Source of the DNA: Rhodocyclales bacterium
GTDB taxonomy: Bacteria > Pseudomonadota > Gammaproteobacteria > Burkholderiales > Rhodocyclaceae
NCBI GenBank assembly: GCA_016192435.1
Contig: JACPUD010000076.1
Span: forward strand, 1-40,198
Reading direction: 5' to 3'
Length of the DNA stretch: 40,198 bases
The position numbers were made by a program, and so were the translations under genes. Every line of letters starts with the position of its first letter. Position 1 is the stretch's first letter. A model generated the notes under the pieces. It ran no database searches. It was not told the DNA's origin and worked only from the letters and a program-made list of their open reading frames with translations. Positions 4,979 to 27,887 of this stretch are shown in pieces.

Positions 4979-5833
4979 TCAGTATTTTGCCGGGCAGAGG
5001 ATGCGCTGCATGGCGTTGGCCGCCGTGCGCAACTCCGCAACGCTGTTCAGCAGTTCATCCAGCGAGCGGCGTGCGGTCGGCGCGTGACAGGCAACCGCCG
5101 CCACCAGCTTGCCGTCCTCGCCGCTCACCGGCACTGCCACGGCGACCATGCCGAGGACGAATTCCTCGTTGTCGATGCCCACCCCGCGGCGGGCGATTCG
5201 ATCCAGTTCCGCGTCGAGTTCCCGGCGATCGGTGATGGTGCGCGGCGAATGCCGCGTCAGCGGCATCTGGTCGAGGATGCTGCGCCTTTCCAGCAGCGGC
5301 ATCGACGCGAGAAACAGCTTGCCGCTGGCCGTGCAATGCATCGGCACCCAGATGCCGGGCTGCAGATGCATGCGCAGCGGCGCGGTCGTGTCGATGCGCT
5401 CCACGTAGAGCACGCGTCCGGCATCCGGTACGGTCAGGTTGCAGGTTTCGCCGAGTTCCCGCACCAGGTTCCTGAGAACCGCCCGACAATCGCGCCGGAT
5501 GTTGGAGCCGCGCAGCATGCGCAGGGCGAGGGTGCTCGAACGGGTTCCCGGCACATAGCCGCGTTCGGCCGGCATGTGCAGCAGATAACCCTGGGCTTCC
5601 ATCGCCCGCAACAGGCGCATCAGGGTGCTTTTCGGCACCCGCATCACGGCGGCCAGTTGCGCCAGGGTCAGCGGCTGCGAGGCTTCGCTGAGATGCTCGA
5701 GGACGGTCAGCGGCCGCAGGCGCCGGATGTCCTCGCTCGTTTCCTCGTCCCCGCCCTCCTGCGCCAGATCCGCGCCGGACTCGACCCATGCCGCCGTGTG
5801 ATATTGACCCGCCAGGGTCTTGCTTCGCTTGAT
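4979..5833 (-). CDS. IclR-family regulator with apparent ATC start
   Basis: An IclR-family regulator: an N-terminal winged helix-turn-helix (LTVLEHLSEASQPLTLAQLAAVMRV region) and a C-terminal effector-binding domain with GETCNL, HCTASGKLFLA and NEEF motifs. The first GTG/ATG codons (5642-5647) lie inside the recognition region of the HTH, so they cannot be the true start. The same frame is open upstream to a TAG at 5900-5902 and contains no ATG, GTG or TTG. The best signal is a perfect GAGGAGG (5840-5846) six bases before an ATC codon (5831-5833). Used as a start, it gives 284 residues, normal for the family. The alternatives are a CTG start or a mutated ATG that lowers or abolishes expression. 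It ends the minus-strand TRAP/GMC series and probably controls it or itself. Confidence 0.75.
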   Translation of the reverse strand: MKRSKTLAGQYHTAAWVESGADLAQEGGDEETSEDIRRLRPLTVLEHLSEASQPLTLAQLAAVMRVPKSTLMRLLRAMEAQGYLLHMPAERGYVPGTRSSTLALRMLRGSNIRRDCRAVLRNLVRELGETCNLTVPDAGRVLYVERIDTTAPLRMHLQPGIWVPMHCTASGKLFLASMPLLERRSILDQMPLTRHSPRTITDRRELDAELDRIARRGVGIDNEEFVLGMVAVAVPVSGEDGKLVAAVACHAPTARRSLDELLNSVAELRTAANAMQRILCPAKY

Positions 5834-5902
5834 GTTCCGCCTCCTCGGTGGATTTTTCCTTGTCGCCCGGTCTTCGCCGGTGATGGCTCGCGCCGAACTC
5901 TA

Positions 5903-5927
5903 TTTCAGCATACCGTTAATGCTAAAA
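5903..5927. promoter_or_regulatory. Interrupted palindrome upstream of the first IclR gene, candidate operator
   Basis: AGCAT (5907-5911) and ATGCT (5919-5923) form a perfect inverted repeat around a 7-base spacer, extended by TTT/AAA at the outer edges with one mismatch. It lies 60-70 bases upstream of the regulator's ribosome-binding site, where an autoregulatory IclR operator would be expected. Binding is inferred only from symmetry and position. Confidence 0.4.
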
Positions 5928-5929
5928 AT

Positions 5930-6078
5930 CTGAGTTCAGTCCGCAGATGACGCAGATGACGCAGATAAAGCAGTGGCCGGTGCCCATGGCGCACCCGACA
6001 GATGGTACGACCCGACCAAGTAACGCCCTGATCCATCTGCGTTAGTCGGCGAAATCTGCGGATCAATTGCTTTTTGCA
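5930..6078. repeat. Dispersed intergenic repeat type 1, copy 1
   Basis: About 148 bases that recur at 20749-20896 in the same orientation. The ends are inverted: one end carries CCGCAGATGACGCAGAT, the other ATCTGCG...GAAATCTGCGG, so the element can fold into a long hairpin. Shared blocks include GAGTTCA or CAGTTCA before the first arm, a central GGTACG-CCCGACCAA block, and GATCCATCTGCG before the second arm, followed by an AATTGCTTTT-like end. The middle is less conserved. No coding potential is evident. It sits between the CBS-BON gene and the IclR gene. Confidence 0.8.
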
Positions 6079-6113
6079 GGTTTGTCTTGCGCACGGATTT
6101 CGGCCCGGCGTGG

Positions 6114-6782
6114 TCAGCCTCTGCGCACCAGGTGGTTTTCCAGCCGCAGCACGCCGACCGTGGCTTCCGCCGCGGCGCGCGCCGCTTCGATCTGCAACTC
6201 CGAGTCGACCACGCCCCAAAGTTCCACCGCGCCATCGGTGACCGTGACATTGATCAGGTGCATCGGCAGGTCGGCCTCGCTCAGCGCCTTCAGCAACAGG
6301 CTGCGCAGGGCCGAGTCCTCGACGCGAACCCCGCTGGGCTTTTGCCACGTCGCCACGCCGCGCAGCAGGTTGGCGCGGCTGACGATGCCGACCAGTTTGC
6401 CGTGCTCCAGCACCGGCACGCGCTTGATGTGATATTTCTCGAGCATGGCGGCGATGTCGGTGAGCGGGGTATCCGGCGCGACGGTAATCACGTCGCGGGA
6501 CATTACGTCGCGCGCGCGCCGGCCGAATTCCCGCAAGTATTGCTGCGACGCCTCCCCGGGCGTCGCAAGCAGGCGCAGCCACCAGGACGGCCGGCGGCGC
6601 GTTTCCGCCTCGGCGCGGTGGATGAGGTCTCCTTCGCTGACGATGCCGATCAGATTGCCGTCCGCGGCGATTACGGGAACCGCGCTGATATGGGCGTCAA
6701 GCAGGATTTGCGCGATCTCGCCGACATCCGTATCGGGTGTCACGGTGAGGACCGCCGTGGTCATGACGTCTTTGGCTAGCAT
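6114..6782 (-). CDS. CBS-CBS-BON domain protein
   Basis: A 222-residue cytoplasmic protein with two CBS domains (about residues 1-60, starting KDVMTTAVLTVTPDTDV, and about 90-150, starting ARDVMSRDVITVAPDTPL) and a C-terminal BON domain (about 150-218, INVTVTDGAVELWGVVDS). CBS pairs bind adenylates or similar nucleotides; BON domains are usually lipid- or partner-binding. Such stand-alone proteins are common near transporters and in stress regulons, but their targets are mostly unknown. It lies 84 bases downstream of dctM on the same strand. A CCGCGC/GCGCGG hairpin at 6841-6865 lies between them without a T-run, so cotranscription is possible. The island carries a second, broken CBS gene at 26050-26576. 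Confidence 0.85.
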   Translation of the reverse strand: MLAKDVMTTAVLTVTPDTDVGEIAQILLDAHISAVPVIAADGNLIGIVSEGDLIHRAEAETRRRPSWWLRLLATPGEASQQYLREFGRRARDVMSRDVITVAPDTPLTDIAAMLEKYHIKRVPVLEHGKLVGIVSRANLLRGVATWQKPSGVRVEDSALRSLLLKALSEADLPMHLINVTVTDGAVELWGVVDSELQIEAARAAAEATVGVLRLENHLVRRG

Positions 6783-6866: not shown

Positions 6867-8177
6867 TCAATTGACGCCGGCCAGCCAGGTCGCCAGTTTC
6901 GGGAACGCCATCACCAGCCCGACGCCGATGAGTTGCAGGACCATGAACTGCGACATCCCGGCATAGATGTCCTTGAGTTCCCATTGCGGCACCACGCCCT
7001 TGAGGAAATAGGCCGACAGCGCCACCGGCGGCGACAGCCAGGCGGTCTGCAGCGTCATCGCGACCAGAGTGCAGAACCAGATCAGGTCGATGTTCAGCGC
7101 CTGGACGATGGGTAGCACGATGGGCACCACGATGAGCACGATCGGCACCCATTCCAGCGGCCAGCCGAGGATGAAAATCAGTCCCAGGATCACGATCAGC
7201 ATCAGCGTCGGCGGCAGCGCCAGGCTGGTCAGCAGGCCGGCCAGGTACTCGGCGCTGCCCAGGCGGGAGAACACCGCGCCGAACAGATTCGATGCGGTGA
7301 CCAGCATCAGGATCATGCTCGATACCTCGAGCGTCTGGAACGCCGAGCGGCGTATCTTGGCCAGCGTCATGCGCCGCGAGAGCAGCGTCAGGATGAACAC
7401 GGCGGCGCATCCCACCGCGCCGGCATCGGTCGGCGTCGCGATGCCCATCAGGATCACGCCCAGCGTGGCGATGATGACGACGATCACCGGCACCACGCCG
7501 ATCACCAGATCCTTCACTACCGCCATCATCGAGCTCGCACGCATTTCCGGCGGCAGCGCAGGGCCCAGCGCCGGATTGAGCCAGCAGCGCACCAGGCACC
7601 ACATGGTGAAGATGGTGGACAGCAGCAGGCCCGGAATTACCGCGGCGGCGAACAGGTCTGTGGCCGGCACGCCGACCACGGGGCCCATGACGATCAGCAT
7701 CACCGAGGGCGGAATCAGGATGCCCAGCGTGCCGCCGGCGGCGATCGCTCCCGCGCTCATCTTGGTGTCGTAGCCGCTCTTGATCATCGCCGGCCCGGCC
7801 ATGACGCCGAGCAGGGTCACCGAGGAGCCGACGATGCCTGTGGCTGCGGCGAAAATCGTCGCCGTGATCAGCACCGCCAGGTACAGCGAACCGCGCAGTC
7901 CGGCCAGCAACTGCTGGATGCCGGTGAACATGCGTTCCATCAGGCCCGATTGTTCTAGCAGGAAGCCCATGAACAGGAAGAAGGGGATCGAGGCCAGCAC
8001 GGTGTCCTTCATCACCGAGAAGGTCTGCAGTACCGCGAGATCGAACACCATCGAGCCGTAGGCGATGAAGCCGGTGCCGAGCGCCACGGCACCCAGTGTG
8101 AAGGCGATCGGGAAGCCGATGAAAATGATGCCAAACAGGGCCGCCAGGGCAAGCAGCCCGAAGATTTCGTTGCTCAT
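6867..8177 (-). CDS. dctM: TRAP transporter large membrane subunit (DctM type)
   Basis: A 436-residue hydrophobic protein with about 12 membrane segments, the large permease of a TRAP transporter that drives sodium-coupled uptake of organic anions. Family marks are the N-terminal GFPIAFTLGAVALG, SIPFFLFMGFLL, AGGTLGILIPPSVMLIVMG and ATPTDAGAVG segments. The frame is open far upstream, but the ATG at 8175-8177 overlaps the dctQ stop by ATGA and starts with the first helix, so it is the true start. With dctQ, dctP and the GMC dehydrogenase it forms one transport-plus-oxidation module. The substrate is inferred to be a C2 sulfonate such as isethionate. Confidence 0.92.
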   Translation of the reverse strand: MSNEIFGLLALAALFGIIFIGFPIAFTLGAVALGTGFIAYGSMVFDLAVLQTFSVMKDTVLASIPFFLFMGFLLEQSGLMERMFTGIQQLLAGLRGSLYLAVLITATIFAAATGIVGSSVTLLGVMAGPAMIKSGYDTKMSAGAIAAGGTLGILIPPSVMLIVMGPVVGVPATDLFAAAVIPGLLLSTIFTMWCLVRCWLNPALGPALPPEMRASSMMAVVKDLVIGVVPVIVVIIATLGVILMGIATPTDAGAVGCAAVFILTLLSRRMTLAKIRRSAFQTLEVSSMILMLVTASNLFGAVFSRLGSAEYLAGLLTSLALPPTLMLIVILGLIFILGWPLEWVPIVLIVVPIVLPIVQALNIDLIWFCTLVAMTLQTAWLSPPVALSAYFLKGVVPQWELKDIYAGMSQFMVLQLIGVGLVMAFPKLATWLAGVN

Positions 8178-8740
8178 GTCGCCTCCCGACCGAGGCCGAT
8201 CTGTCCGGCACCTTCCGGCCAGCGCCCGCTGATCGCGGCATCGAGGCTTTTGCAGAATTCGGCAACGCCCTGGATCGCCAGCAGCAATCCGGTCAAGGGC
8301 ATCGCCGCCTTGAAGGGCCAGGTGACCGGCATCCAGGGACTGCTGACGAAGCGCTCGCCGGTCATGAAGGCCTTGGCAAAATATCCCCAGCCGAACCAGA
8401 GGAAAATCGCGGCGAAGGGCATGAACATGACCAGATAGCAGATGGCATCGACGATGCCCTGGGTGCGCGGCGACCAGCCGCCGTAGAGCGAATCGGTGCG
8501 GATGTGCCCCTTGCGCTGCAGCGTATAGGCCGAGCCGAGCATGAAGAAGGCGCCATAGAGCATGAAGGTCATGTCGTAGGCCCACAGCGTCGGTGAATCG
8601 AATACGTAGCGCGCCACGACTTCGTAGACCAGCGACAGCACCATGGGGATGATCAGCCAGGCGGTCAGCTTGCCCGCCCATATGGCGATCGGATCGAGCG
8701 CGTGCGCGATGCGCAGCAGTTTTGAGGGATGTCCGGTCAT
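8174..8740 (-). CDS. dctQ: TRAP transporter small membrane subunit (DctQ type)
   Basis: A 188-residue protein with four predicted membrane helices (LIIPMVLSLVYEVVARYVF, MTFMLYGAFFMLGSAYTL, AICYLVMFMPFAAIFLWFGW and AAMPLTGLLLAIQGVAEF). It carries the DctQ signature of an aromatic/arginine-rich first helix end (RYVFDSPTLWAYD) and a KGHIRTD loop. It pairs with DctM in the inner membrane. Its stop overlaps the dctM start by four bases, so the two are translationally coupled; dctP starts 79 bases upstream of its ATG. The order dctP-dctQ-dctM is canonical. Confidence 0.9.
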   Translation of the reverse strand: MTGHPSKLLRIAHALDPIAIWAGKLTAWLIIPMVLSLVYEVVARYVFDSPTLWAYDMTFMLYGAFFMLGSAYTLQRKGHIRTDSLYGGWSPRTQGIVDAICYLVMFMPFAAIFLWFGWGYFAKAFMTGERFVSSPWMPVTWPFKAAMPLTGLLLAIQGVAEFCKSLDAAISGRWPEGAGQIGLGREAT

Positions 8741-8819
8741 GAGTCCTGTATCCGAGCGTATTCCAGCAGGTTGAATGCGGTGCCCGGCTCGCGCCGTGCA
8801 CCGCTGCGCTTGGCGGCGA

Positions 8820-9932
8820 CTATTTGTGGGCTACCGCCTCGGCGCCGAGACCGTAATACAGGCCGTTGATCTTGGTCCAGTAAGGCACCACGACCTTGGC
8901 ATAGGCGCGCTGCGATTCCAGCACCTCCTTGAACAGCGGATTGCGCGCCGCCTCGCGGTCGTACACGATGTTGGTGGCCTTGAGGAAGGCGGCAAAGAAC
9001 TCCTTCGGCGTGTCATGCACGATGACCTTGTGATCCTTCTGCAGCTTCTCCAGGGCCTTCGCGTTGCGATCGACGTTGAAGGCATAGGTTTCGGTGATGG
9101 TCGCCATCACGGCGCCCTCGATGACCGCCTTCAGGTCCGCCGGCAGCTTGTTCCAGACCGTCTTGTTGATCAGTATCTCGCCGATGTCCGAGGACTGATG
9201 CAGACCCTGCAGGTAGTAGTGCTTGAACACGTTATGGAAGCCGAGGATCATGTCGTCCGCCGGACCGATCCATTCGGCTGCGTCGATTACGCCGCGCTGT
9301 GCGGCCGGAACGATCTCGCCGCCCGGCATGGCCACTGCGTTGATGCCCATTTCCTTGAAAACCTCACCCGTCAATCCGGGAGGCGAGCGGTATTTCATTT
9401 TCTTCATGTCGGCGATCGAGTTGATCGGCGTCTTGAACCAGCCGAACGGGTCGGGACCCATCGGCTGCATCATGAAGGGCTTGATGTTCATCTTCAGGCC
9501 CGACTCATACAGCTTTTCGTAGAGCGCATTGCCGCCGCCCTGCGAGAGCCAGGCCATGTGCGAGATCTGGTCCATGCCGGTGCCGGAGCCTGCCGCCGGG
9601 TTCGAGAACAGGGCTGCCGCGCTGTTCTTGCCCGACCAGTAGTGCGTCCAGGCGAAACCGCCATCGACCACACCCTTGTCTACCGCGTCGAGAATTTCGA
9701 AAGCATTGACCACCGCGCCGTCGGGCAGGATTTCCATCTTGATGCGGCCGTTGGACATCTTGTCCACGCGGTCGCCGAAGCGCTTCATCAGGTCGTAGTA
9801 GATGCTCGCGGTCGGAACCGCGGTCTGGATTTTCATCCGCGTCACTTGCTGGGCCTGCGCCATGCCGCCGGCGGCGACCAGCATAGCCGCGACAGTCCCC
9901 ATCAATAATTTCCGCATCAAAGTCGCCATCAT
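8820..9932 (-). CDS. dctP: TRAP transporter periplasmic solute-binding protein (DctP type)
   Basis: A 370-residue binding protein with a cleavable Sec signal (LLMGTVAAMLVAAGGMAQA, cleavage near residue 27). The body has DctP-family features: FGDRVDKMSNGRIKMEILPDGAVV, the WFKTPINSIADMKKMKYRSP region containing the conserved arginine that pairs with a carboxylate or sulfonate, and AAQRGVIDAAEWIGPADD. Two adjacent ATGs follow a good AGGAGGCA ribosome-binding site. It belongs to the branch whose members bind varied organic anions, so the ligand cannot be read from sequence. Its position beside a GMC dehydrogenase in an xsc/sau island suggests isethionate or a related C2 sulfonate. Confidence 0.9.
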   Translation of the reverse strand: MMATLMRKLLMGTVAAMLVAAGGMAQAQQVTRMKIQTAVPTASIYYDLMKRFGDRVDKMSNGRIKMEILPDGAVVNAFEILDAVDKGVVDGGFAWTHYWSGKNSAAALFSNPAAGSGTGMDQISHMAWLSQGGGNALYEKLYESGLKMNIKPFMMQPMGPDPFGWFKTPINSIADMKKMKYRSPPGLTGEVFKEMGINAVAMPGGEIVPAAQRGVIDAAEWIGPADDMILGFHNVFKHYYLQGLHQSSDIGEILINKTVWNKLPADLKAVIEGAVMATITETYAFNVDRNAKALEKLQKDHKVIVHDTPKEFFAAFLKATNIVYDREAARNPLFKEVLESQRAYAKVVVPYWTKINGLYYGLGAEAVAHK

Positions 9933-10017: not shown

Positions 10018-11619
10018 TCATTGTTTGCCGGCATCCTGGCGAATCATGTCGGCGGCCTTCTCGGCAATCATTATTGTTGGCGCGTTGGTGTTGCCCGAGA
10101 CGATCTCCGGCATGATCGACGCATCGACCACGCGCAATCCGGAAATGCCGCGCACCCTGAGCCTCGCATCGACCACCGCCAGGGCGTCATCGCCCATCTT
10201 GCAGGTGCCGACCGGGTGATAGATGGTCTGGCTGTAGCGTCTTGCGGCATCCAGCAATTCCTCGTCCGCCTGGAACCCGGCACCCGGTACAAATTCGGAA
10301 ACAATGTGCGGCGCCAGCGCAGGCGCCTGCGCAATGCGGCGGGCCATCCTGATGCCGCCTATAACAACCGGATAATCGCGTTCGTCCGACAGGTAATTCG
10401 GATGGATCGCCGGGTAGTCCAGCGCATCGGCCGACTTGATTGCGATGCGTCCGCGGCTGAAGGGGCGCAACTGACAGACCGACGCCGTAAAGGCGGAAAA
10501 GCGATGCGCCCCTTCACCCGGCTTGTCCGCGCTCAGGGGCTGCATGTGGAACTGGATGTCCGGCCGCGCCACATCGGGGCCGGAGCGGGTGAAGATCGCG
10601 ACCTGGCTCGCTGCCAGCGTCAGCGGGCCGGTCCGTGACAGCATGTACTGCATGCCGATCCACAGTTTGTTCAGCGGACTGTTGACCTCATCGTTCAGCG
10701 TGCGCTCGCGGGTCTTGAACACCAGCCTGACCTGAAGGTGATCCTGAAGGTTTTCTCCGACGCCGGGCAAATCGAGCACCATCGGCACGGCCAGCCGCTG
10801 CAGCAGTCCGGCGGGGCCGATGCCAGAGCACTGCAGGATCTGCGGCGAACCGATGGCGCCGGCCGCAAGGATGATTTCCGCCAGGGCCGTCGCCCGCCGC
10901 CGTTCTCCGCCCTGGATGAACTCGACCCCGACGGCACGCCGGCCCTCGAACAGCACGCGAGTGGTCTGGGCGCGGGTTTCAAGCCGCAGGTTCGGACGTT
11001 TGCGCGCGGGTTTCAGGAAGCCTTTTGCCGTGCTCCAGCGCAGCCCTTTGTGTGCCGTCTGCTGGAAATAGCTGACGCCTTCCTGTTCCGCCCCGTTCGG
11101 GTCGTCGTTGAAGGGAATGCCGATTTCCTGGGCAGCCTTGACGAAGTGGTCGGCAATCGGGCGATTCAGGCGCAGGTCCGAAACCTTCTGCGGCCCGCCG
11201 ACGCCGTGATAGTCGTTGGCCCCGCGCTGCTGGTCTTCCGACTTCCGGAAATAGGGCAGCACATCGTCGTAGCGCCAACCCGGGTTGCCCAGATCCGCCC
11301 AGTGATCGTAGTCCGCCCGTTGGCCGCGGATGTACAACAGACCGTTGAGGGAACTCGATCCGCCCAGCACCTTGCCGCGTGGCCACTGCAACTGGCGATT
11401 GGCGATGCCCGGGTCCGGTTCGGTCAGATAGCACCAGTCCAGCTTGGGGTCATGCATGGTCTTGAAGTAACCGACCGGGATGTGAATCCAGGGATTCCAG
11501 TCTTCGCCGCCGGCTTCGAGCAGCAAGACGCTATTTTGGGGATCCTCGGACAGCCGGCTGGCCAGGACGCATCCGGCCGATCCGGCACCGACTACGATGT
11601 AGTCGAAAACGTAAGACAT
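10018..11619 (-). CDS. GMC-family FAD oxidoreductase, candidate isethionate dehydrogenase
   Basis: A 533-residue glucose-methanol-choline flavoprotein. The FAD-binding GxGxxG is at residues 11-16 (GAGSAG), followed by the LLLEAGG acidic end and the GMC signature [18 protein letters not shown]. The active-site pair is His468 ([10 protein letters not shown]) and Asn512 ([16 protein letters not shown]). The family oxidises alcohols to aldehydes. Isethionate (2-hydroxyethanesulfonate) oxidation to sulfoacetaldehyde would feed Xsc directly, and isethionate dehydrogenase IseJ of Cupriavidus is, as I recall, of this general type. The longer frame starts at 11652, but the ATG at 11617-11619 follows GGGGGAAG and begins with the flavin-binding strand. 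A palindrome shared with the xsc promoter region lies 58 bases upstream. A choline or other alcohol dehydrogenase is the alternative. Confidence 0.85.
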
Positions 11620-11676
11620 TTGCCGCTTCCCCCTGCCCAGTAGCGGCTTCAAGGAGCCACTTCATCGATATGAATA

Positions 11677-11859: not shown

Positions 11860-13368
11860 CTATGACTGCAGGGCAGCCTTGCGTTGCCGGTACTTCTTGA
11901 TCAGGCCCGGCAGGGCCGCCCAGGCGATGAACGCGACGGACATGCCGAGGATGGAGGCGCTGATCGGCCGCTGTATGAAAATTAGCATGTTGTCGTCGTA
12001 GTTGGCCAGCGAGGTCAGGAAGTAGCGTTCGGCCAATGGGCCGAGAATTACGCCCAGGATCAGCGGCGCGGCGGGAAAGTTGTAGCGCTTCATCAGGTAG
12101 CCGATCACGCCGAAGACCATGCAGACATAGACGTCGAAGATGTTGTTGCGCACGCCGTAGGCGCCGAGCACGCTGAGCACGACGATGAAGCCGCTGAGGA
12201 TCGCCGGCGGCACCTTCATGAAATGCGAAAATCCGCGCGCGATCACCACCCCGGCGGCGATCATGAAGATATTGGCGAGCAGCATGGAGGCGAAGATCGC
12301 ATAGACCAGGTCGGTCTGGGTGCTGAATAGCATGGGTCCCGGCGTCACTCCCTTGAGCACCAGGGCCGCCATCATGATCGCCGTCGCCGCGCTGCCCGGG
12401 ATGCCCAGCGTCAGCAGCGGGATCATCGCGGCACCCGTGGTGGCGTTTTTCGCCGCTTCGGGTGCGGTCAGTCCATCCGGCACGCCGGTACCGAACTCGG
12501 CGCCGCGCGGCGACGCCTGCTTCTCGATGCCATAGGCGATGACCGCGCCGACCGTGGCGCCGGCGCCCGGAATCATGCCGATCACGCTGCCGATCGCCGT
12601 GCCGCGCATGACCGACCAGCGCAGCGCCCACATTTCCGAAAACTTTGGGCGCTCGAAGCGTATCTTGCCCATGACCTTGGTCGCCGCCTCGGACTTGGCC
12701 AGCATTTCCACCACTTCGCCGAGAGCGAACAGGCCGATCATGACGACGACAAAATTGATGCCGCTCTGCGCATTGGTCGCGCCGAAAGTCAGGCGCGGAA
12801 CGCCGTACAGCGGATCGACGCCGACCGTGCCGATCGCCAGGCCGATGAAAAGCGACAGGAAGCTGACCCATGGCGCCGATTTCGCGACCGCGATAATGCT
12901 GACCAGCCCAAGGAAGGTCGCCGCAAAGAATTCCGGCTGGTCGAACTGCAGGGCGAATTTGGCGAACGGTGGCGCGCCAAAGGTCAGCAGCAGAGCGCTG
13001 ACGATGCCGCCCGTGGCCGATGCGGCGATGGCGATGGTCAGCGCCCGCCCCGACTTGCCCTGCTTGGTCATCGGATAGCCATCCCAGCAGGCCGGTAGCG
13101 AGGCCGGTGTGCCGGGTATGTTGATCAGGATCGCCGAGATCGATCCGCCGAACACCCCGCCGGCATAGATGCCGCCAAGGAAGGACATCGAGTCGAGCGG
13201 CGACATCATGTAGGTGAAGGGCAGTGCCATGGCCATGGCATTGACGAAGGAGATGCCGGGCAACGCGCCGGCGACCACACCGATTGCCAGTCCGATCACG
13301 ATCATCATGAAGTGGCCGGGTTGCAGCACCGTGGCCAACCCGGTGGCCAGCAGAGAAAATGCATCCAT
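11860..13368 (-). CDS. tctA: Tripartite tricarboxylate transporter large permease (TctA)
   Basis: A 502-residue polytopic inner-membrane protein of the TTT family. Typical segments are IGLAIGVVAGALPGISFVNAMA near the N-terminus, GGIYAGGVFGGSISAILINIPGTPASLPA and its repeat IGMIPGAGATVGAVIAYG...EAAKNATTGAAMIPLLTLGIPGSAATA. The ATG at 13366-13368 begins at the first helix; the longer open frame upstream overlaps tctB and lacks family character. It lies 11 bases downstream of tctB. The system is energised by ion gradients and takes up carboxylates or other anions delivered by TctC. In this island sulfoacetate is the most economical substrate. Confidence 0.92.
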   Translation of the reverse strand: MDAFSLLATGLATVLQPGHFMMIVIGLAIGVVAGALPGISFVNAMAMALPFTYMMSPLDSMSFLGGIYAGGVFGGSISAILINIPGTPASLPACWDGYPMTKQGKSGRALTIAIAASATGGIVSALLLTFGAPPFAKFALQFDQPEFFAATFLGLVSIIAVAKSAPWVSFLSLFIGLAIGTVGVDPLYGVPRLTFGATNAQSGINFVVVMIGLFALGEVVEMLAKSEAATKVMGKIRFERPKFSEMWALRWSVMRGTAIGSVIGMIPGAGATVGAVIAYGIEKQASPRGAEFGTGVPDGLTAPEAAKNATTGAAMIPLLTLGIPGSAATAIMMAALVLKGVTPGPMLFSTQTDLVYAIFASMLLANIFMIAAGVVIARGFSHFMKVPPAILSGFIVVLSVLGAYGVRNNIFDVYVCMVFGVIGYLMKRYNFPAAPLILGVILGPLAERYFLTSLANYDDNMLIFIQRPISASILGMSVAFIAWAALPGLIKKYRQRKAALQS

Positions 13369-13379
13369 CGCGAAGATCC

Positions 13380-13955
13380 TTAGTAAATGCCGAGCAGTCG
13401 AAACAGCGCGATGGTGAGTTCGCCAAATGCACCTTGACCGCGATCCAGCGGCATCAATGCCAGCTTGACGAAAACGTAGAGCAGGACCACGGTGCCGATC
13501 AGCGTTACTGAAATCAGTTGCAGGGGTTTGCGGATGCCGCCGACCAGGAACCACAGCAGCAGGAACACCACCGTCGCCGCAGTGAAGCCTACCCAGGGGA
13601 TCACGAAGGCATAGGCCATCGCCAGCGAGAGCCCGAAGACGATCGGAAGCAGTGGAGCATCATCGTTTTCCTGCTCGAAGCCGACGTCGCCAAATTCGAG
13701 CGCCTCCTCCGCCGCGCTCGGCGGCGGCGGCAGGACATTGAATGCCTTCCAGCCTTGCTCGATGGCCCAGCCGAGAGCGCATATGCCGACGCCTGCTAGC
13801 ATCAGTTTCGGCCAGGTCAGCGGTGTTGCCAGGCCACGCGCCATGCCCTGGACCATTTGCGGGTTGTCGACGATGATGTGGCCCAGGATCAGGGCGATCA
13901 ACGCCACCAGCTCGGCGAAGACGGCATGGATCATAGGTTGGCGGTTGTAGATCAT
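13380..13955 (-). CDS. tctB: Tripartite tricarboxylate transporter small permease (TctB)
   Basis: A 191-residue protein with four or five predicted helices (FAELVALIALILGHIIV, PKLMLAGVGICALGWAI, LLPIVFGLSLAMAYAFVIPWVGFTAATVVFLLLWFLVG and LISVTLIGTVVLLYVFV), a soluble acidic loop around residues 75-105 and the short basic end usual for TctB. It is the poorly conserved partner of TctA. It is assigned mostly from topology and from its place between tctC and tctA, 37 bases from the former and 11 from the latter. Confidence 0.87.
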   Translation of the reverse strand: MIYNRQPMIHAVFAELVALIALILGHIIVDNPQMVQGMARGLATPLTWPKLMLAGVGICALGWAIEQGWKAFNVLPPPPSAAEEALEFGDVGFEQENDDAPLLPIVFGLSLAMAYAFVIPWVGFTAATVVFLLLWFLVGGIRKPLQLISVTLIGTVVLLYVFVKLALMPLDRGQGAFGELTIALFRLLGIY

Positions 13956-16576: not shown

Positions 16577-16613
16577 GGTGGCAGAGGCTCTGTCGGGATT
16601 GGGGAAAGTCTGC

Positions 16614-19032: not shown

Positions 19033-19043
19033 CCCGGAACCTG

Positions 19044-20738: not shown

Positions 20739-20748
20739 CCTTAAAACC

Positions 20749-20896: not shown

Positions 20897-20901
20897 CAAG
20901 C

Positions 20902-21882
20902 TCATCCTGAATGCGCCGAGTGCATCCAGGATTCGTCGAGTTCCGCTCCGAAGCAGCGCTGGTAATACTCGGCGACGATGGGGCGCTCGGCATCGTCGCA
21001 CTTGTTGAGGAATGAGAGGCGGAAGGCCAGCGCCGGGTCGCCGAAGATTTCGCAGTTCTCCGCCCAACTGATCACGGTGCGCGGCGACATCAGCGTGGAC
21101 AGGTCGCCGACGGCGAAGCCCTTGCGCGTCAGGTCGGCCACCGCGACCATCGAACTCACCAGTTGCCGGCCGCGTTCGTTGTCCTTGCCCGGCACGCGCG
21201 CCAGGACGATCGCGACCTCCTCGGCGTGCGGCAAGTAATTGAGTGTGGCGACGATGTTCCAGCGATCGATCTGGGCGTGGTTGAGCAACTGCGTGCCATG
21301 GTAGAGGCCGGAGAGGTTGCCGAGGCCAACCGTGTTCGAGGTGGCGAACAGGCGGAAGGCCGGGTGGGGCTTGATCACGCGGTTCTGGTCGAGCAGGGTG
21401 AACTTGCCATCGCGTTCGAGGATGCGCTGGATCACGAACATCACGTCGGGCCGCCCGGCGTCGTACTCGTCGAAGATCAGCGCAACCGGCCGCTGCAGCG
21501 CCCAGGGCACGATGCCTTCCTGGAAGGCGGTGACCTGCAGGCCGTCCTTGAGCACGATGGCATCCTTGCCGACCAGGTCGAGGCGGCTGATGTGGCCGTC
21601 GAGGTTGATGCGCACGCAGGGCCAGTTGAGCCGCGCCGCGACCTGCTCGATATGGGTCGATTTGCCGGTGCCGTGCATGCCCTGCAGCATCACGCGGCGA
21701 TCGTTGGCGAAGCCGGCGAGAATGGCCAGCGTCACCTCGGGGTTGAAGCGGTACACCGTGTCGATTTCCGGCACGTGGTCGTCGCGCTCGCTGAAGGCCG
21801 GCACCCTCAGGTCGACATCGATGCCGAAGGTCTCGCGTACCGAGACTTCGCGGTCGGGACCTGTCTGTGCCAGATCAGCCAT
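20902..21882 (-). CDS. cobS: CobS-like AAA+ ATPase
   Basis: A 326-residue MoxR-type AAA+ ATPase matching CobS. Walker [10 protein letters not shown] is at residues 68-76, the CobS signature [16 protein letters not shown] follows, Walker B is LIFDEYDAG at about 136-144, and a sensor region [18 protein letters not shown] is present. The length matches the family. The frame opens at a TTG (21888), but the ATG at 21880-21882 has GGGAGGG at ideal spacing. It precedes cobT on the same strand, separated only by a 147-base repeat, and follows an IclR gene. Without a cobN the partner that it remodels is unknown; see findings. Confidence 0.9.
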
Positions 21883-21888
21883 AGACAA

Positions 21889-21978: not shown

Positions 21979-22806
21979 TCATGTGCCGGAACGCAATGCG
22001 CCCGGCTGGGCCGCCGCATCGATCGCGGCAATTGCCGCAACGGCGCGGCGCAGCGGCGGCAGCAGTTCGCCGAGCCGGTCGTGCGACAGGCGCATCACCG
22101 GCGCCTGAATGGCGATGCCAGTATTGGAGCGGCCGCCGTCGGCGGCCGGCACCAGCATGGCAACACAGAACAGGCCGGGCAGGAATTCCTCGTCGTCGCA
22201 GGCGTAGCCATCCCCTTTGACGCGCCGGACTTCGGCTTCCAGCAGGGCCGGGTCGGTGATGGTGCGCGGCGTGTAACGTTCCAGCGGCACCTGTTCCAGC
22301 AGGCGCTTGCGCTGGCTTGCGCTCATCTGCGCCAGGAACAGCTTGCCGCTGGCCGAACAGTGGGCCGGCACGCGCGATCCCGGATGGAGGTAGAAACGCA
22401 GCGGTGCGACGGTTTCGACGCGGTCGAGGTAGAGCACTTCGCTGCCCGACAGCGCGGTGATGTTGCAGCTTTCGCCGACTTCCTCGACCAGCTTGCGCAG
22501 CACGGCATGGCGTGCGCCATGCACGGTGTTGTTGAGCAGCAGGTTCTCCGCCAGCCGGCGCAGGCGCAGGCCGGTGCTGTAGTGGCGGCCGTCGCTCTCG
22601 CGCTGCAGCATGCCGGCGGCTTCGAGCTGCTGCAGCATGCGATGCACGGTCGGCTTGGGCAGGCCGGTCTCGTCGACCAGGCCCTGCAGGTTGAAGAACT
22701 GGTCGCGGCCGGCGATGACTTCGAGCAGGGCGAACAGGCGCAGGGCCGGGGTGTCGCCGTCGATGCGCAGCGGTTCCGGCGGGGGAGTCGATATTTGTTG
22801 ATTCAT
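21979..22806 (-). CDS. IclR-family regulator next to xsc
   Basis: A 275-residue IclR protein. The HTH is at about residues 25-80 (ALLEVIAGRDQFFNLQGLVDETGLPKPTVHRMLQQLEAAGML). The effector domain has EVGESCNITALSG, HCSASGKLFLAQM and DDEEFLPG motifs. A longer frame begins at a TTG inside the operator region; the ATG at 22804-22806 is preferred. It is divergent from xsc, with two similar palindromes in the 155 bases between. The same pattern upstream of the GMC gene suggests it also controls the GMC/TRAP operon. The likely inducer is sulfoacetaldehyde or a parent sulfonate (inference). cobS and cobT lie downstream on the same strand and may be cotranscribed. Confidence 0.88.
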   Translation of the reverse strand: MNQQISTPPPEPLRIDGDTPALRLFALLEVIAGRDQFFNLQGLVDETGLPKPTVHRMLQQLEAAGMLQRESDGRHYSTGLRLRRLAENLLLNNTVHGARHAVLRKLVEEVGESCNITALSGSEVLYLDRVETVAPLRFYLHPGSRVPAHCSASGKLFLAQMSASQRKRLLEQVPLERYTPRTITDPALLEAEVRRVKGDGYACDDEEFLPGLFCVAMLVPAADGGRSNTGIAIQAPVMRLSHDRLGELLPPLRRAVAAIAAIDAAAQPGALRSGT

Positions 22807-22836
22807 GGTCGGCCCATCATATCGGATTTCATTTAT

Positions 22837-22853
22837 CGGTACAATATGTTTCA
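22837..22853. promoter_or_regulatory. Candidate IclR operator 1 upstream of xsc
   Basis: CGGTAC-aatat-GTTTCA follows the pattern GNNAC-N5-GTNNC. Together with the next bases it shares an identical 15-mer (22844-22858) with the operator upstream of the GMC gene. It ends 7 bases before the -35 box of the proposed xsc promoter, an activator-type position. Confidence 0.6.
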
Positions 22854-22860
22854 ATATTTG

Positions 22861-22906: not shown

Positions 22907-22927
22907 ATCGGAACCTTTGGTACCGAT
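22907..22927. promoter_or_regulatory. Candidate IclR operator 2 upstream of xsc
   Basis: The core CGGAAC-ctttg-GTACCG is flanked by AT on both sides, giving an 8+5+8 inverted repeat with one mismatched pair. It lies just downstream of the predicted xsc transcription start, a repressor-type position, and ends 35 bases before the xsc ATG. Confidence 0.6.
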
Positions 22928-22961: not shown

Positions 22962-24773
22962 ATGAGCAAGCCCGACCAGCGCACGGTGCCCGCAGGCCCG
23001 ACCCGCATGACCCCTTCCGAAGCCTTCGTCGAAACCATGGTCGCCAACGGCGTGACCGACATGTTCGGCATCATGGGTTCGGCCTTCATGGACGCCATGG
23101 ACATCTTCGCCCCGGCCGGCATCCGCCTGATCCCGGTGGTGCATGAGCAGGGCGCGGGCCACATGGCCGACGGCTATTCGCGCGTGTCCGGTCGCCACGG
23201 CGTCTGCATCGGCCAGAACGGCCCCGGCATCAGCAACTGCGTGACGGCGATCGCCGCCGCTTACTGGGCGCACAGCCCCGTCGTGATCGTGACGCCGGAG
23301 ACCGGCACCATGGGCATGGGCCTCGGCGGCTTCCAGGAAGCCAACCAGTTGCCGATGTTCGAGGAATTCACCAAGTACCAGGGCCATGTGAACAATCCCA
23401 AGCGCATGGCCGAATACACCGGCCGCTGTTTCGACCGCGCCATGAGCGAGATGGGTCCGACCCAGCTCAACATCCCGCGCGACTATTTCTACGGCGACAT
23501 CACCTGCGAGATTCCCCAGCCCTTCCGCCTCGATCGCGGACCCGGCGGAGAGCAAAGCCTCAATGAAGCGGCCGAACTGCTGGCGAACGCCAAATTTCCG
23601 GTCATCATTTCCGGTGGCGGCGTGGTCATGGCCGACGGCGTCGAGGAGTGCAAGGCGCTGGCCGAGCGCCTCGGCGCGCCGGTGGTCAATAGTTACCTGC
23701 ACAACGACTCCTTCCCCGCCAGCCATCCGCTGTGGTGCGGCCCGCTCGGCTACCAGGGTTCGAAGGCGGCGATGAAGCTGATGGCGCAGGCCGATGTGGT
23801 GGTCGCTCTGGGCTCGCGTCTCGGCCCCTTCGGCACCCTGCCGCAGCACGGCATGGACTACTGGCCGAGCAAGGCGAAGATCATCCAGATCGATGCTGAC
23901 CACAAGATGCTCGGCCTGGTCAAGAAAATTTCCGTCGGCATCTGCGGCGATGCCAAGGCCGCCGCCGTTGCGCTGACCCAGCGCCTGGCCAACCGCACGC
24001 TGGCCTGCGATGGAAGCCGCGCTGAGCGCGCGGCGACGATCAAGGCCGAGAAAGCGGCGTGGGAGAAGGAACTCGACGAATGGACCCACGAGCGCGATCC
24101 CTTCAGTCTCGACATGATAGCCGCGAACGGAAACGAGACAACGTTCAGCGGCGGCAGCTACCTGCATCCGCGCCAGGTGCTGCGCGAGCTCGAAAAGGCC
24201 ATGCCGCCCGACGTCATGGTGTCCACCGACATCGGCAACATCAACTCGGTGGCCAACAGCTACCTGCGCTTCGAGAAGCCGCGCAGCATGTTCGCCGCGA
24301 TGAGCTTCGGCAACTGCGGCTACGCCTTCCCCACCATCATCGGCGCCAAGGTGGCCGCTCCGCACCGTCCGGCGGTCTCCTATGCCGGCGACGGCGCCTG
24401 GGGCATGAGCCTGATGGAAACCATGACCTGCGTGCGCCACGACATCCCGGTCACCGCCGTGGTGTTCCACAACCGCCAGTGGGGCGCGGAGAAGAAGAAC
24501 CAGGTCGACTTCTACAACCGCCGCTTCGTCGCCGGCGAACTCGACAACCAGTCCTTCGCCGGCATCGCGCGGGCCATGGGCGCCGAGGGCATCACGGTGG
24601 ACAAGCTGGAAGACGTCGGCCCGGCGCTGAAGAAGGCTATCGACCTGCAGATGAACCAGGGCAAGACCTGCATCATCGAAATCATGTGTACCCGCGAACT
24701 CGGCGATCCCTTCCGCCGCGATGCGCTGTCGAAGCCGGTGCGCCACCTCGAAAAGTACAGGGACTACGTCTGA
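22962..24773 (+). CDS. xsc: Sulfoacetaldehyde acetyltransferase
   Basis: A 603-residue thiamine-diphosphate enzyme that cleaves sulfoacetaldehyde with phosphate to acetyl phosphate and sulfite, the desulfonating step shared by taurine, isethionate and sulfoacetate pathways. The N-terminal region (MTPSEAFVETMVANGVTDMFG, VVHEQGAGHMADGYSRVSGR, WAHSPVVIVTPETGTMGMGLGG) matches Xsc closely, including the HEQ glutamate that activates ThDP. The Mg/ThDP motif begins GDGAWGMS near residue 475 and ends with HNRQWGAEKKNQ. The length is typical. The ATG at 22962 follows CGGAGA. It is divergent from an IclR gene, and pta is next downstream after a terminator. This gene anchors the interpretation of the whole island. 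Confidence 0.96.
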   Translation: MSKPDQRTVPAGPTRMTPSEAFVETMVANGVTDMFGIMGSAFMDAMDIFAPAGIRLIPVVHEQGAGHMADGYSRVSGRHGVCIGQNGPGISNCVTAIAAAYWAHSPVVIVTPETGTMGMGLGGFQEANQLPMFEEFTKYQGHVNNPKRMAEYTGRCFDRAMSEMGPTQLNIPRDYFYGDITCEIPQPFRLDRGPGGEQSLNEAAELLANAKFPVIISGGGVVMADGVEECKALAERLGAPVVNSYLHNDSFPASHPLWCGPLGYQGSKAAMKLMAQADVVVALGSRLGPFGTLPQHGMDYWPSKAKIIQIDADHKMLGLVKKISVGICGDAKAAAVALTQRLANRTLACDGSRAERAATIKAEKAAWEKELDEWTHERDPFSLDMIAANGNETTFSGGSYLHPRQVLRELEKAMPPDVMVSTDIGNINSVANSYLRFEKPRSMFAAMSFGNCGYAFPTIIGAKVAAPHRPAVSYAGDGAWGMSLMETMTCVRHDIPVTAVVFHNRQWGAEKKNQVDFYNRRFVAGELDNQSFAGIARAMGAEGITVDKLEDVGPALKKAIDLQMNQGKTCIIEIMCTRELGDPFRRDALSKPVRHLEKYRDYV

Positions 24774-24925: not shown

Positions 24926-24959
24926 CACTCGTCACCACGCCACGTGAGGAAACAGACCG

Positions 24960-25973
24960 ATGAAAGCGCTCCACCGGATCATGGATCGAGCCCGCGAGGC
25001 GCCGGTTCGCATCGCCATGTCCGAAGCTCAAGATCCGCGCATTCTCGCGGCGGCGGTGCGCGCGACACGGGAAGGCATGGCCCGCATCATCATGGTGGGC
25101 GACCGCGCCGGCATCACGGAGACCGCCCGCACGGAGGGCTTGAAGCTCACCGGCATCGATTTCCACGATCCGGCGCACGCATCAAACCAGCGGGAACTGG
25201 CACAAGCCCTCTACGAACTGCGACGCCACAAGGGCTTGACCATGGCCCAGGCCGAGGCAAGCGCGCGGGATCCCCTGGTCTGCGCCAACCTGCTGGTTCG
25301 CCTGGGCTTGGCCGAAGGCACCGTCTCCGGAGCGGTACGCACCTCGGCCGACGTTGTCCGCACGGCGATCCAGGTAATCGGCGTCAATCCGGACATCGAG
25401 CTGGTCTCCAGCTTTTTTCTGATGATGCTGTGCGAACCCTTCCATTCGCTGAAGGGGGGGCTGATCTTTTCCGATTGCGGCCTGGTGGTCGATCCCGATG
25501 CCGAAGCGCTTTCCGAAATCGCCCTGGCGGCAGCCGATAGTGCGAGCAGCCTGCTGATGGAAGAGCCGCGGGTGGCGATGCTTTCGTTTTCCACCGATGG
25601 GAGCGCAAAACACGCCGCCGTGGATAAGGTGGTCGCCGCCACGAATCGCGTCAAGGCCCGGCGGCCCGGTCTGTGCATCGACGGCGACGTTCAGCTCGAC
25701 GCCGCGATCGTTGCCCACATCGCGAGTCGCAAACTGCCGGAATCGAGGGTCAAGGGTCGCGCCAACGTACTGATCTTCCCGAGCCTCGAAGCGGGAAACA
25801 TCGGCTACAAACTGGCGGAGCGCATCGGCGGCGCCGTCGCCATCGGACCCCTGCTGCAGGGGCTGGCCAAGCCGGCCAATGACCTTTCACGCGGTTGCAG
25901 CAGCGAGGACGTGTTCCATGTAATCGCGGTGACGGTCGTGCAGGCCGGCTCCCATGCGCCCCAACCCGGCTAG
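24960..25973 (+). CDS. pta: Phosphate acetyltransferase
   Basis: A 337-residue short-form phosphotransacetylase converting acetyl phosphate from Xsc into acetyl-CoA. Family marks are RIAMSEAQDPRILAAAV at the start, AGAVRTSADVVRTAIQVIG, SSFFLMM, GLIFSDCGLVVDPDA and the C-terminal ANVLIFPSLEAGNIGYKL. It lacks the DRTGG-type N-terminal domain of long Pta proteins. The ATG at 24960 follows GTGAGGA. Linkage to xsc is the classic arrangement for sulfonate dissimilation; the enzyme is cytoplasmic. Confidence 0.95.
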   Translation: MKALHRIMDRAREAPVRIAMSEAQDPRILAAAVRATREGMARIIMVGDRAGITETARTEGLKLTGIDFHDPAHASNQRELAQALYELRRHKGLTMAQAEASARDPLVCANLLVRLGLAEGTVSGAVRTSADVVRTAIQVIGVNPDIELVSSFFLMMLCEPFHSLKGGLIFSDCGLVVDPDAEALSEIALAAADSASSLLMEEPRVAMLSFSTDGSAKHAAVDKVVAATNRVKARRPGLCIDGDVQLDAAIVAHIASRKLPESRVKGRANVLIFPSLEAGNIGYKLAERIGGAVAIGPLLQGLAKPANDLSRGCSSEDVFHVIAVTVVQAGSHAPQPG

Positions 25974-26049
25974 GACGCTTGGCGGCCGTACCGCCTCAAC
26001 CCACAACACGTGAGTCCAACAGTAGATTCGCTCAATACAAGAAGGGAAA

Positions 26050-26576
26050 ATGATGTCAGCTGCCGTGTTGACCCTGAAATCTGTTGATTGCGCCAGCTTG
26101 CCCATTCCCGGAGCGGACCCTTGGTATGCATGCGAGGGCGATCAGGCAATGTCGGTGATGATCGATTTCCGCTCACGCCCCTCGGTGACGGTGTCGGAAG
26201 ACGAGACCATCGATGAGGCGCTCAAGCACCTGAAACACGCGGGTGTCAGATGCGCCTTCGTCATCGACGAGAAGAAACGGGCTGTTCTGGGGATGCTCAC
26301 CGCCCATGACATTCTGGGCGAGAAGCCGCAACAGTATGTCCATTTTGCGGGCGGCAGCCTGGGCGACGTGCGGGTGAGAGACATCATGCAAGACATTTCC
26401 GGTTGGCGTGTGGCAGACGTCAAGGATATCGAGCAATCGACCGCGGGGACGTGTTGAAGATATTTCATGCAACCGGGGTAACACACTTGCCGGTGATGGA
26501 GACGACAGAACGCAATGATCAACGTTTGCGAGGCCTGTTTTCTTTTGCCAAGATCAAACGCCTGCTGGTGAAATGA
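26050..26576 (+). pseudogene. CBS-domain protein gene interrupted by a frameshift
   Basis: An ATG-ATG at 26050 after GAAGGG starts a protein with one complete CBS domain (about residues 40-95, SRPSVTVSEDETIDEALKHL). A second CBS domain begins near residue 108 (VRVRDIMQDISGWRVADV), but the frame stops at 26455-26457. The second domain continues in the next frame from 26451: VLKIFHATGVTHLPVMETT...LRGLFSFAKIKRLLVK, ending at TGA 26574-26576. Restoring one base in the GGGG at 26445-26448 would give a normal protein of about 175 residues (SerThrAlaGlyAsp-ValLeuLys junction). It could be a genuine inactivation or a homopolymer sequencing error. It lies between pta and a hypothetical gene. Confidence 0.8.
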
Positions 26577-26673
26577 CCGGGCGCGCGAAGCAAATCGCCG
26601 AGACGAGCAAGACTCGCTTGGGCCTGCAGATCCACGATCACGAACCTATGGATTAAGCACAGGGAGCGGGTAA

Positions 26674-27033
26674 ATGAAACTCAAGGTGATCCAGTTGAAT
26701 TTCGGCTATGGAGGTGGCAGCGCGTCCGCCTGCATCTATGGACCGGAGCCGGCAGACGTGTTTGCCCGACGCCCGCAGTTGGCCATTCATATCAACTTCA
26801 GCTTGCACCGCGATCAACCGGATTTCGAGAGCGCCACCCAGGATCTGGTGACTCTGCCGATCGAGACTGCAACGCCCTTCCTGTGTGTCGGATTTCTCTC
26901 GGATCCACCGATGCATACGGACCGCGACCTGAACTGGCCGCATCCAAGCGAATATCGGCACAAGCTGACGCAGGCCATAGCAAAGATGGTAAGCGTGGCA
27001 ATTCAGACAAGCGATGCCGACTGTCATGGCTGA
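26674..27033 (+). CDS. Hypothetical protein
   Basis: A 119-residue reading frame starting at ATG 26674, with AGGGAG 9 bases upstream and no competing gene on the other strand that makes sense. I do not recognise the family. It starts MKLKVIQLNFGYGGGSASAC, has no signal peptide or membrane helix, and contains scattered cysteines and histidines. It sits between the broken CBS gene and the TauE-like exporter on the same strand. Codon use (GC-rich third positions less marked than neighbours) leaves some doubt that it is expressed. Confidence 0.5.
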   Translation: MKLKVIQLNFGYGGGSASACIYGPEPADVFARRPQLAIHINFSLHRDQPDFESATQDLVTLPIETATPFLCVGFLSDPPMHTDRDLNWPHPSEYRHKLTQAIAKMVSVAIQTSDADCHG

Positions 27034-27155
27034 ACCAGCTGTTCCGCTACCGTGATGCTGCCGACCAATCAAGAATGGATACCGGCACGGCAAGTCGGGC
27101 AACTCATCGCATCACCAGCCGCGTCGCCAATTCTGCAGTAAGGCATCGGACCGCC

Positions 27156-27887
27156 ATGGATTCAGTCATTGTTCAGGTGGTTCTGGTCGCGACGCTGGCC
27201 GGGTTCATCCAGGGCCTTTCGGGATTCGCCTTCGCCCTGGTCGCCACCTCGCTCCTTGCCTGGACCATCGAGCCGCAGGTGCTGGCGCCCACCGTCGTCC
27301 TCACCTCGCTGCTGGGGCAGATCACCTCGCTATCCAGCGTCGGGACCAAGCTTCGGGCCGGGCGCGCGACGCCCTTTCTGATCGGCGGGGTGCTTGGCGT
27401 CCCGGCCGGCGTGCTGCTGCTGCCGCTGCTCGACGCCAACGCTTTTCGCGCCAGCATCGGCATCGTCTTGATCGTCTATTGCAGCGTCATGCTGGGAATC
27501 AAGGAACTGCCCGTATTCCGCTGGGGCGGCGCACGCGCCGACGGCGGCGTCGGGCTGCTGGCCGGAATTCTGGGCGGTGCGACGGGAATTCCCGGCCCGC
27601 CGATCATCCTCTGGTGCGCCCTGCGCGGCTGGGACAAGGAAACCCAGCGCGCAACCTCGCAGTCTTTCTTCATCGGCGTCCAGCTCCTGATCCTCGGCTC
27701 TTACCTCGCCGCCGGGCTGTTCAACACGCGCAGCCTGCAACTGGTTCTGGTGGCCTCCCTGCCGATCATCCTTTCCGCGTGGCTTGGATCGCGAATCTTC
27801 AGGCGATTCACGAACCAGGGGTTTCAGAAACTCATTTTCAGCCTGTTGCTGATATCCGGAATTGCACTGGTGTGGAGCGGATTATGA
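27156..27887 (+). CDS. TauE/SafE-family anion exporter, probable sulfite exporter
   Basis: A 243-residue membrane protein with about eight helices in the two-fold TauE/SafE pattern: VVLVATLAGFIQGLSGFAFALVATSLLAW with GLSGFAFAL in the first repeat, and GLLAGILGGATGIPGPPIILWCAL in the second. The ATG at 27156 opens directly with the first helix; upstream sequence in the frame is not family-like. Members beside xsc are thought to export the sulfite released by Xsc, and no sulfite dehydrogenase gene is in the window. The last six bases overlap the convergent acyltransferase gene. Sulfoacetate export is a less likely alternative. Confidence 0.85.
   Translation: MDSVIVQVVLVATLAGFIQGLSGFAFALVATSLLAWTIEPQVLAPTVVLTSLLGQITSLSSVGTKLRAGRATPFLIGGVLGVPAGVLLLPLLDANAFRASIGIVLIVYCSVMLGIKELPVFRWGGARADGGVGLLAGILGGATGIPGPPIILWCALRGWDKETQRATSQSFFIGVQLLILGSYLAAGLFNTRSLQLVLVASLPIILSAWLGSRIFRRFTNQGFQKLIFSLLLISGIALVWSGL

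Follow-up and report, generated by a model that had tools for sequence, protein, structure and literature searches.

Why should an island for the degradation of two-carbon (C2) sulfonates carry, in its middle, two genes of a kind usually annotated as cobalt-insertion subunits of vitamin B12 synthesis? The question is raised by a 40,198-nucleotide stretch of a Rhodocyclales bacterium (GenBank contig JACPUD010000076.1, the whole of which is called the window here; it is contig C46 of the 3.5-Mb, 83% complete genome assembly G000). The island (positions 4979-27887) comprises an isethionate (ise)-like module, a sulfoacetate (sau) module, a CobT/CobS-like pair (19044-21888) and a module around xsc, which encodes sulfoacetaldehyde acetyltransferase, the desulfonating enzyme where several aerobic C2-sulfonate routes converge. 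A preliminary description had read the region as a C2-sulfonate island, and the island is real: profile matches placed every part it had named, but the CobT-like, the CobS-like and two CBS-domain proteins had gone unmentioned. The reading favored here, which we consider moderately probable, is a joint one: the region serves a Sulfuritalea-like bacterium as an island for C2-sulfonate catabolism, and the pair is a dedicated remodeler (activase) of Xsc clade I, composed of a MoxR-type AAA+ ATPase and a protein with a von Willebrand factor A (VWA) domain. The pair is probably neither a hitchhiker nor a cobaltochelatase. The features at the center of this argument are:

19044..20738, minus strand: CobT-like VWA protein of the xsc-linked lineage (TIGR01651, 286 bits; cut-off of 759 not reached)
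20902..21888, minus strand: CobS-like MoxR-type AAA+ ATPase (TIGR01650, 547.4 bits; cut-off of 558.6 narrowly missed)
21979..22854, minus strand: IclR3, regulator adjacent to the CobS-like gene, transcribed divergently from xsc (PF01614, PF09339)
22909..22925, plus strand: operator-like palindrome CGGAACCTTTGGTACCG, one mismatch to CGGAAC-N5-GTTCCG
22962..24773, plus strand: Xsc, sulfoacetaldehyde acetyltransferase of clade I (TIGR03457, 1074 bits; cut-off 676)

Both proteins retain the motifs of a MoxR-AAA+/VWA pair. Walker A and Walker B are conserved in the CobS-like protein, and the metal ion-dependent adhesion site (MIDAS) of the CobT-like protein (D365, S367 and S369; T401 and T402; D488) is invariant across 41 aligned rows. 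The predicted model of the latter had a predicted local distance difference test score (pLDDT) of 67.6, and its top Foldseek matches were the NorD VWA domain and the Midasin MIDAS domain, with modest TM-scores.

The association with xsc recurs across genomes. In a sample of 300 genomes of the order (CobS at E 1e-90 or better, Xsc at 1e-180, at most four Xsc candidates scored per genome), CobS was found in 14 and Xsc in 37; 13 of the 14 CobS genomes also had Xsc, 12 of them on the same contig and 10 within 3.1 kb. The chance of such an overlap is ∼2e-12 if the genomes are taken as independent, which they are not. The exceptions were G118, where CobS lies ∼10 kb from CobN, and G195, which has no Xsc. 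The association depended on the kind of Xsc: CobS accompanied 12 of the 13 genomes with an Xsc at least 81% identical to that of the window, and only G118 among the 24 with an Xsc at most 76% identical. Within the genus, CobS occurred in 13 of 31 genomes, in 11 about 1 kb from Xsc and in two at contig ends. When 397 genomes of the phylum were sampled (at most three Xsc candidates each), CobS was found in nine genomes of the window's own class and Xsc in the identical nine, each time on one contig; in the other classes, 154 genomes had CobS and none had Xsc at the threshold used, which misses the distant (∼46% identical) alphaproteobacterial Xsc. Among 72,556 plasmid records searched, CobT was matched along 80% or more of its length in seven, each of which carried an Xsc of 86-90% identity within 6 kb.

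The linkage persists where the gene order differs, and is seen in Burkholderiales, Vibrionaceae and further families. Constant partners of the pair are Xsc, usually IclR3, and often Pta; the GMC dehydrogenase, the TRAP (tripartite ATP-independent periplasmic) transporter and the sau genes are inconstant. A complete CobT-like gene was present in 40 of 80 GMC loci (the best 80 of 454), and the GMC protein was rejected as the client of the pair because it is not a constant partner. As separate observations, six loci (L038, L041, L045, L050, L061 and L194) hold two xsc copies flanking or near the pair, and a SnoaL/NTF2-like protein of ∼130 residues, absent from the window, is encoded near xsc in 29 of 75 clade-I, one of 20 clade-II and four of 60 flanking loci (for example, L038 21028-21444 and L073 468-857). 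These gene counts cover 220 of 254 loci (L001-L020 and L101-L114 were left out), and several loci in the arrangement, gene-content and palindrome counts show a place that is already represented by another locus.

Phylogenies resolved the linkage into lineages. For these, near-duplicate rows (above 88% identity for CobT, 94% for CobS and 96.5% for Xsc) and short rows (CobS under 280, CobT under 430 and Xsc under 540 residues) were removed, and five short CobT rows were re-read at full frame. A branch with 100/100 support separates the Xsc-linked CobT proteins (41 rows) from 13 other rows, and the Xsc-linked CobS proteins likewise form one group in a quick tree (45 versus 14 rows; Shimodaira-Hasegawa-like approximate likelihood-ratio test, 99). 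Xsc lies in the fetched locus for 30 of the 41 CobT rows and on the same contig for seven more (L023, L102-L105, L110 and L112); for the other four (L021, L044, L054 and L168), the end of the contig or locus is reached before Xsc could show. In the quick tree of Xsc, 33 of the 37 clade-I rows were accompanied by the pair and none of the 17 others, six rows without an assignable pair status having been dropped; G118, among these 17, carries only a CobN-linked CobS. As in CbbQO-type systems, linkage to one clade of client enzyme was thus found.

The palindrome between IclR3 and xsc (22909-22925) lies in the upstream region common to IclR3-CobS-CobT and xsc-pta. With up to two mismatches, CGGAAC-N5-GTTCCG was found upstream of xsc in 36 of 63 clade-I loci and two of 20 others, and in ∼1% of single-base shuffles; the pattern was derived from part of the loci later counted, and the sites in Pandoraea nearly duplicate one another. 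Single sites mean little because across the whole window at three mismatches there were 32 matches versus 28 expected by chance. The positions of the three IclR genes fit the proposal in the preliminary description of a separate regulator for each module, the palindrome having been examined only upstream of xsc. CobS and Xsc genes are divergent in 39 and convergent in 32 of 71 pairs, 10 of which repeat places already included.

What would such a pair do? The CobS-like ring would use ATP, the CobT-like VWA domain would dock on Xsc via the MIDAS metal, and the pair would remodel Xsc, restoring or keeping its activity, as CbbQO does with Rubisco. For CbbQO, the available part of the source proposes that the VWA adaptor binds an acidic Rubisco surface residue via its MIDAS (PMC4660213), and NorQD-type pairs are described, in the portion accessible, as driving metal insertion (PMC13036017). 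As far as these texts go, the likeness consists of an AAA+ ATPase and a VWA/MIDAS partner encoded beside the client enzyme. Unlike CbbQO and NorQD, the pair in the window belongs to another AAA+/VWA lineage, and its proposed client is a thiamin diphosphate (ThDP) enzyme. Sequence comparison supplies the families, linkage, clades, motifs, the absence of CobN from most of the hosts searched, and the operator-like site; docking on Xsc, remodeling and the relief of damage or inhibition are suggested by analogy with CbbQO. A literature search yielded no paper linking CobS/CobT with xsc among the matches listed, subscription papers being mostly outside its scope. If the activase reading is true, a dedicated remodeler implies that Xsc has an inactivation problem not described in the literature examined, MoxR/VWA activases extend to a ThDP enzyme, and the label "cobaltochelatase CobS/CobT" is to be corrected in many beta- and gammaproteobacteria.

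Several observations weigh against this reading. Four clade-I genomes have no pair, two of them 80-82% complete (G028 and G002) and two 99% complete (G170 and G010), and three further plasmid records with such an Xsc, all from Rhodococcus, had no CobT match (their chromosomes lay outside the search). Because of these cases, the pair is not strictly required; either it would assist without being essential, or it acts in some other place. The positions at which Xsc of the pair-less clade-I rows differs, only 50 and 306, were uninformative. An insert at about residues 390-399 of Xsc, with E392 in all 37 clade-I rows and in Rhodococcus and a gap in all 17 others, follows the Xsc clade and not the pair, and is thus only a candidate docking site. 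An AlphaFold model of Xsc (pLDDT 49.9) was unusable and was set aside. Finally, the nearest solved chains by sequence are cobaltochelatase CobS and CobT, and the CobS-like protein misses the cobaltochelatase cut-off only narrowly. The pair probably helps to keep the clade-I enzyme working. As an observation of its own, a Rhodococcus plasmid (DK17 pDK3; L192 1843-14893) combines a clade-I type xsc (86%) with a succinate-CoA-ligase-like pair, a SauS-like dehydrogenase and transhydrogenase genes; this actinobacterial xsc looks like a transfer between phyla.

The resemblance to CobS and CobT is what an ordinary aerobic cobaltochelatase, present in the island by chance, would predict, and it is in keeping with the annotation as "cobalt chelatase" elsewhere, with the best PDB matches and with CobN in eight of 27 host genomes. 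The domain make-up and the Walker and MIDAS motifs are indeed those of CobNST, and the CobS-like protein shares 72% identity with a CobS of Sinorhizobium meliloti. However, of the 27 genomes whose CobS belongs to this lineage, 19 lacked CobN (PF02514), including 14 that are 98-100% complete (G013 and G025 were assigned to the lineage by CobS identity and place beside Xsc), and no CobN match was obtained in the 83% complete G000. This absence alone is no proof, because three of 10 alphaproteobacteria with CobS also lacked CobN (seven had it), but the CobT-like protein is far under its equivalog cut-off, and its clade is separate from the CobN-linked G118 copy and from 10 alphaproteobacterial copies. 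Given this clade, the missing CobN and the retained xsc linkage, a hitchhiking cobaltochelatase was set aside as very improbable. That the pair merely traveled with one xsc cluster lineage, with no role in the pathway, would explain why pair-less clade-I loci look otherwise normal (L160, L178 and L132); against such neutral co-inheritance, which we regard as distinctly unlikely, the linkage outlasts changes of gene order and spans several families, the Walker and MIDAS motifs are retained, and an operator-like site lies in the common upstream region. The pair could instead be a maturation chaperone, for example for metal insertion, of another sulfonate-pathway protein. NorQD-type pairs insert metal, according to the accessible text (PMC13036017), and in Pandoraea oxalativorans a related CobS/CobT pair that is not of this lineage neighbors urease genes. 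Since Xsc is a constant partner whereas the GMC dehydrogenase, the TRAP transporter and the sau genes are not, such a client other than Xsc is unlikely.

Two pairs outside the xsc lineage deserve mention in their own right. On the P. oxalativorans plasmid pPO70-1 (L118 5362-12820), a CobS/CobT-type pair that falls outside the lineage in the CobT tree directly follows ureG in a urease cluster (ureABC, ureD and ureG), possibly a second client that is not a chelatase. The other (L130 7208-10110) belongs to G195, a 97% complete genome in which neither Xsc nor CobN was matched.

If Xsc needs an activase, what inactivates it? Sulfite cleaves thiamin, and reactivases that eject a damaged cofactor offer a comparison. 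Sulfite formed in the active site of Xsc might destroy its ThDP; the pair would then be a reactivase opening Xsc and ejecting the damaged cofactor, and thiS-thiG, present in some clusters, would rebuild the thiazole. We hold this to be rather doubtful; if true, the pair is AAA+ machinery that repairs a ThDP enzyme. Self-damage of this kind is a bold candidate because thiamin is degraded by sulfites, as stated in the available part of one source (PMC8362232). Genes for thiS/thiG were found in four of 75 clade-I and one of 26 CobS-only loci, but never in the 20 clade-II, the 60 flanking or the 39 other loci; the numbers are small, include redundant loci and are partly post hoc, thiG having first been seen in Rhodococcus and then sought elsewhere. 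The occurrences near xsc or CobST are:

L038 18676-20858: thiS/thiG
L121 13344-15452: thiS/thiG
L122 4390-6493: thiS/thiG
L192 127-1123: thiS/thiG
L054 7643-7934: thiS/thiG

They represent four lineages, namely Aromatoleum, the genus of G229 and G284, Rhodococcus DK17 and an Oxalobacteraceae metagenome-assembled genome (MAG). In Aromatoleum, xsc-yeiH-thiS-thiG form one run, and in L038, the gene after the second xsc is YeiH by NCBIfam and Pfam. A ThiO-like gene accompanies thiS/thiG in L121 and L122 (in L121, at 205 bits, under the cut-off of 251; ThiS there, at 29.8, is under 37.45). In the Oxalobacteraceae MAG, ThiS and a 33-residue ThiG match lie beside CobT; Pfam found no ThiG in the open reading frames (ORFs) tried.

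The catabolic setting consists of known parts. Downstream of xsc lie:

24960..25973, plus strand: Pta, phosphate acetyltransferase (TIGR00651, 335 bits; cut-off 311)
26050..26457, plus strand: CBS-domain protein (PF00571)
26883..27887, plus strand: TauE/SafE-family exporter, candidate sulfite exporter (PF01925, 105 bits)

The sau module, served by a tripartite tricarboxylate transporter (TTT), comprises:

11860..13554, minus strand: TTT transporter TctA (PF01970)
13380..13955, minus strand: TTT transporter TctB (PF07331)
13993..14961, minus strand: TTT transporter TctC (PF03401)
15035..16690, minus strand: SauT-type AMP-forming sulfoacetate-CoA ligase, putative, adjoining SauS (PF00501, PF13193)
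16614..18044, minus strand: SauS, acylating sulfoacetaldehyde dehydrogenase (NF047625, 774 bits; cut-off 600)
18169..19032, plus strand: IclR2, divergent from sauS (PF01614, PF09339)

The ise-like module comprises:

4979..5809, minus strand: IclR1, IseR-like regulator (PF01614, PF09339)
6114..6782, minus strand: CBS-BON protein (PF00571, PF04972)
6867..8801, minus strand: TRAP large permease DctM with a long N-terminal part (PF06808 at 220-636)
8820..9932, minus strand: TRAP substrate-binding protein DctP, IseK-like (PF03480)
10018..11652, minus strand: GMC oxidoreductase, candidate isethionate dehydrogenase IseJ (PF00732, PF05199)

Homology thus supports three C2-sulfonate modules (ise-like, sauST with the TTT transporter, and xsc-pta-TauE), their substrates being assigned on that basis. 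Isethionate would enter by the TRAP transporter and be oxidized by the GMC dehydrogenase to sulfoacetaldehyde, which would also arise from sulfoacetate via the TTT transporter, SauT and SauS. Xsc, predicted from its equivalog match to form acetyl phosphate, would convert sulfoacetaldehyde and phosphate to sulfite and acetyl phosphate, from which Pta would yield acetyl-CoA. This convergence, as proposed in the preliminary description, is well supported because Xsc and SauS have equivalog-level matches and the gene order is ise-like. Sulfite would leave through TauE or be oxidized by Soe- or Apr-type enzymes encoded elsewhere in the genome. For the suggestion that sulfite is oxidized by products from outside the window, candidates were found. 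One is aprA, which scored 936 bits against a cut-off of 642; the other lies 11 kb from it (contig C62), where three consecutive genes encode DmsC-like, Fe-S and molybdopterin subunits of 325, 364 and 974 residues, a set that fits SoeABC. The latter name is putative, since the NCBIfam matches are to related subunits and all below cut-off. The alternative SorA received no match (fold PF00174, profile search of the same genome), an absence that weighs little because the genome is only 83% complete. Five class-III aminotransferases were found, none identified as the taurine enzyme Tpa; one of them (contig C34) is an omega-type enzyme without closer assignment, so that a Tpa may still be encoded. 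Elsewhere, in G017 (C1 217714-225826; L137 and L189), a DmsC/SoeC-like gene lies ∼5 kb from a second xsc.

SauT has only general AMP-binding matches, with no NCBIfam model over its cut-off among the 25 matches listed; it is named from its position beside SauS, and its specificity for sulfoacetate is putative. Its true start is probably internal to the listed ORF, near 16576. According to the accessible portion of PMC12625764, sauST and a TTT transporter are clustered in sponge symbionts, and to that extent the window is alike in holding SauS, SauT and such a transporter in one cluster; unlike theirs, its version has an ise-like module, an xsc module and the CobS/CobT-like pair as neighbors. 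For isethionate, the text available describes the gene order iseR-M-L-K-J in Ruegeria pomeroyi (PMC4334477) and IseJ as a membrane-bound flavin-dependent dehydrogenase (PMC6453916). Insofar as these sources describe it, the same order of regulator, TRAP permease, binding protein and flavin-type (GMC) dehydrogenase is found here, unlike in R. pomeroyi with a CBS-BON gene interposed and with sau and xsc modules in the same island. IseJ is a candidate assignment from gene order and the GMC family; the GMC protein matches NF002550 (630 bits; cut-off 605) and falls below the betA equivalog (536; cut-off 732). Because the ise order, the IseJ type and sauST-TTT match published clusters, the pathway parts are known kinds in a single combination; the module types, including sauST with a TTT transporter, have been described before.

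The CBS-BON gene keeps its position beside the TRAP genes in relatives, and Pfam gave no sign of a fused small permease in the long N-terminal part of the TRAP permease. For IclR1, the listed start (GTG 5647) falls inside the helix-turn-helix (HTH) domain, whereas from 5809 HTH_IclR is present (36 bits; cut-off 22). The region (4979-5827) has a strong ribosome-binding-site-like GAGGAGG; since no ATG, GTG or TTG lies between it and the HTH domain, the start codon is uncertain and may be unusual or altered.

The grouping of the island is beyond chance, as module genes co-occur again in the neighborhoods of relatives, and the nearest named relatives of the GMC gene are mostly Sulfuritalea MAGs (among the best 80 of 454). 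Two lipid-A-type acyltransferase genes flank the island block. In the relative L029, their homologues lie 1.3 kb apart with no island genes between them and the ise module after the second; in G027, the island occupies the same place; in L028, the ise module adjoins the acyltransferase gene; and in G007, the sau-CobST-xsc part adjoins dapF. From these arrangements, the site of the island looks like an insertion hot spot.

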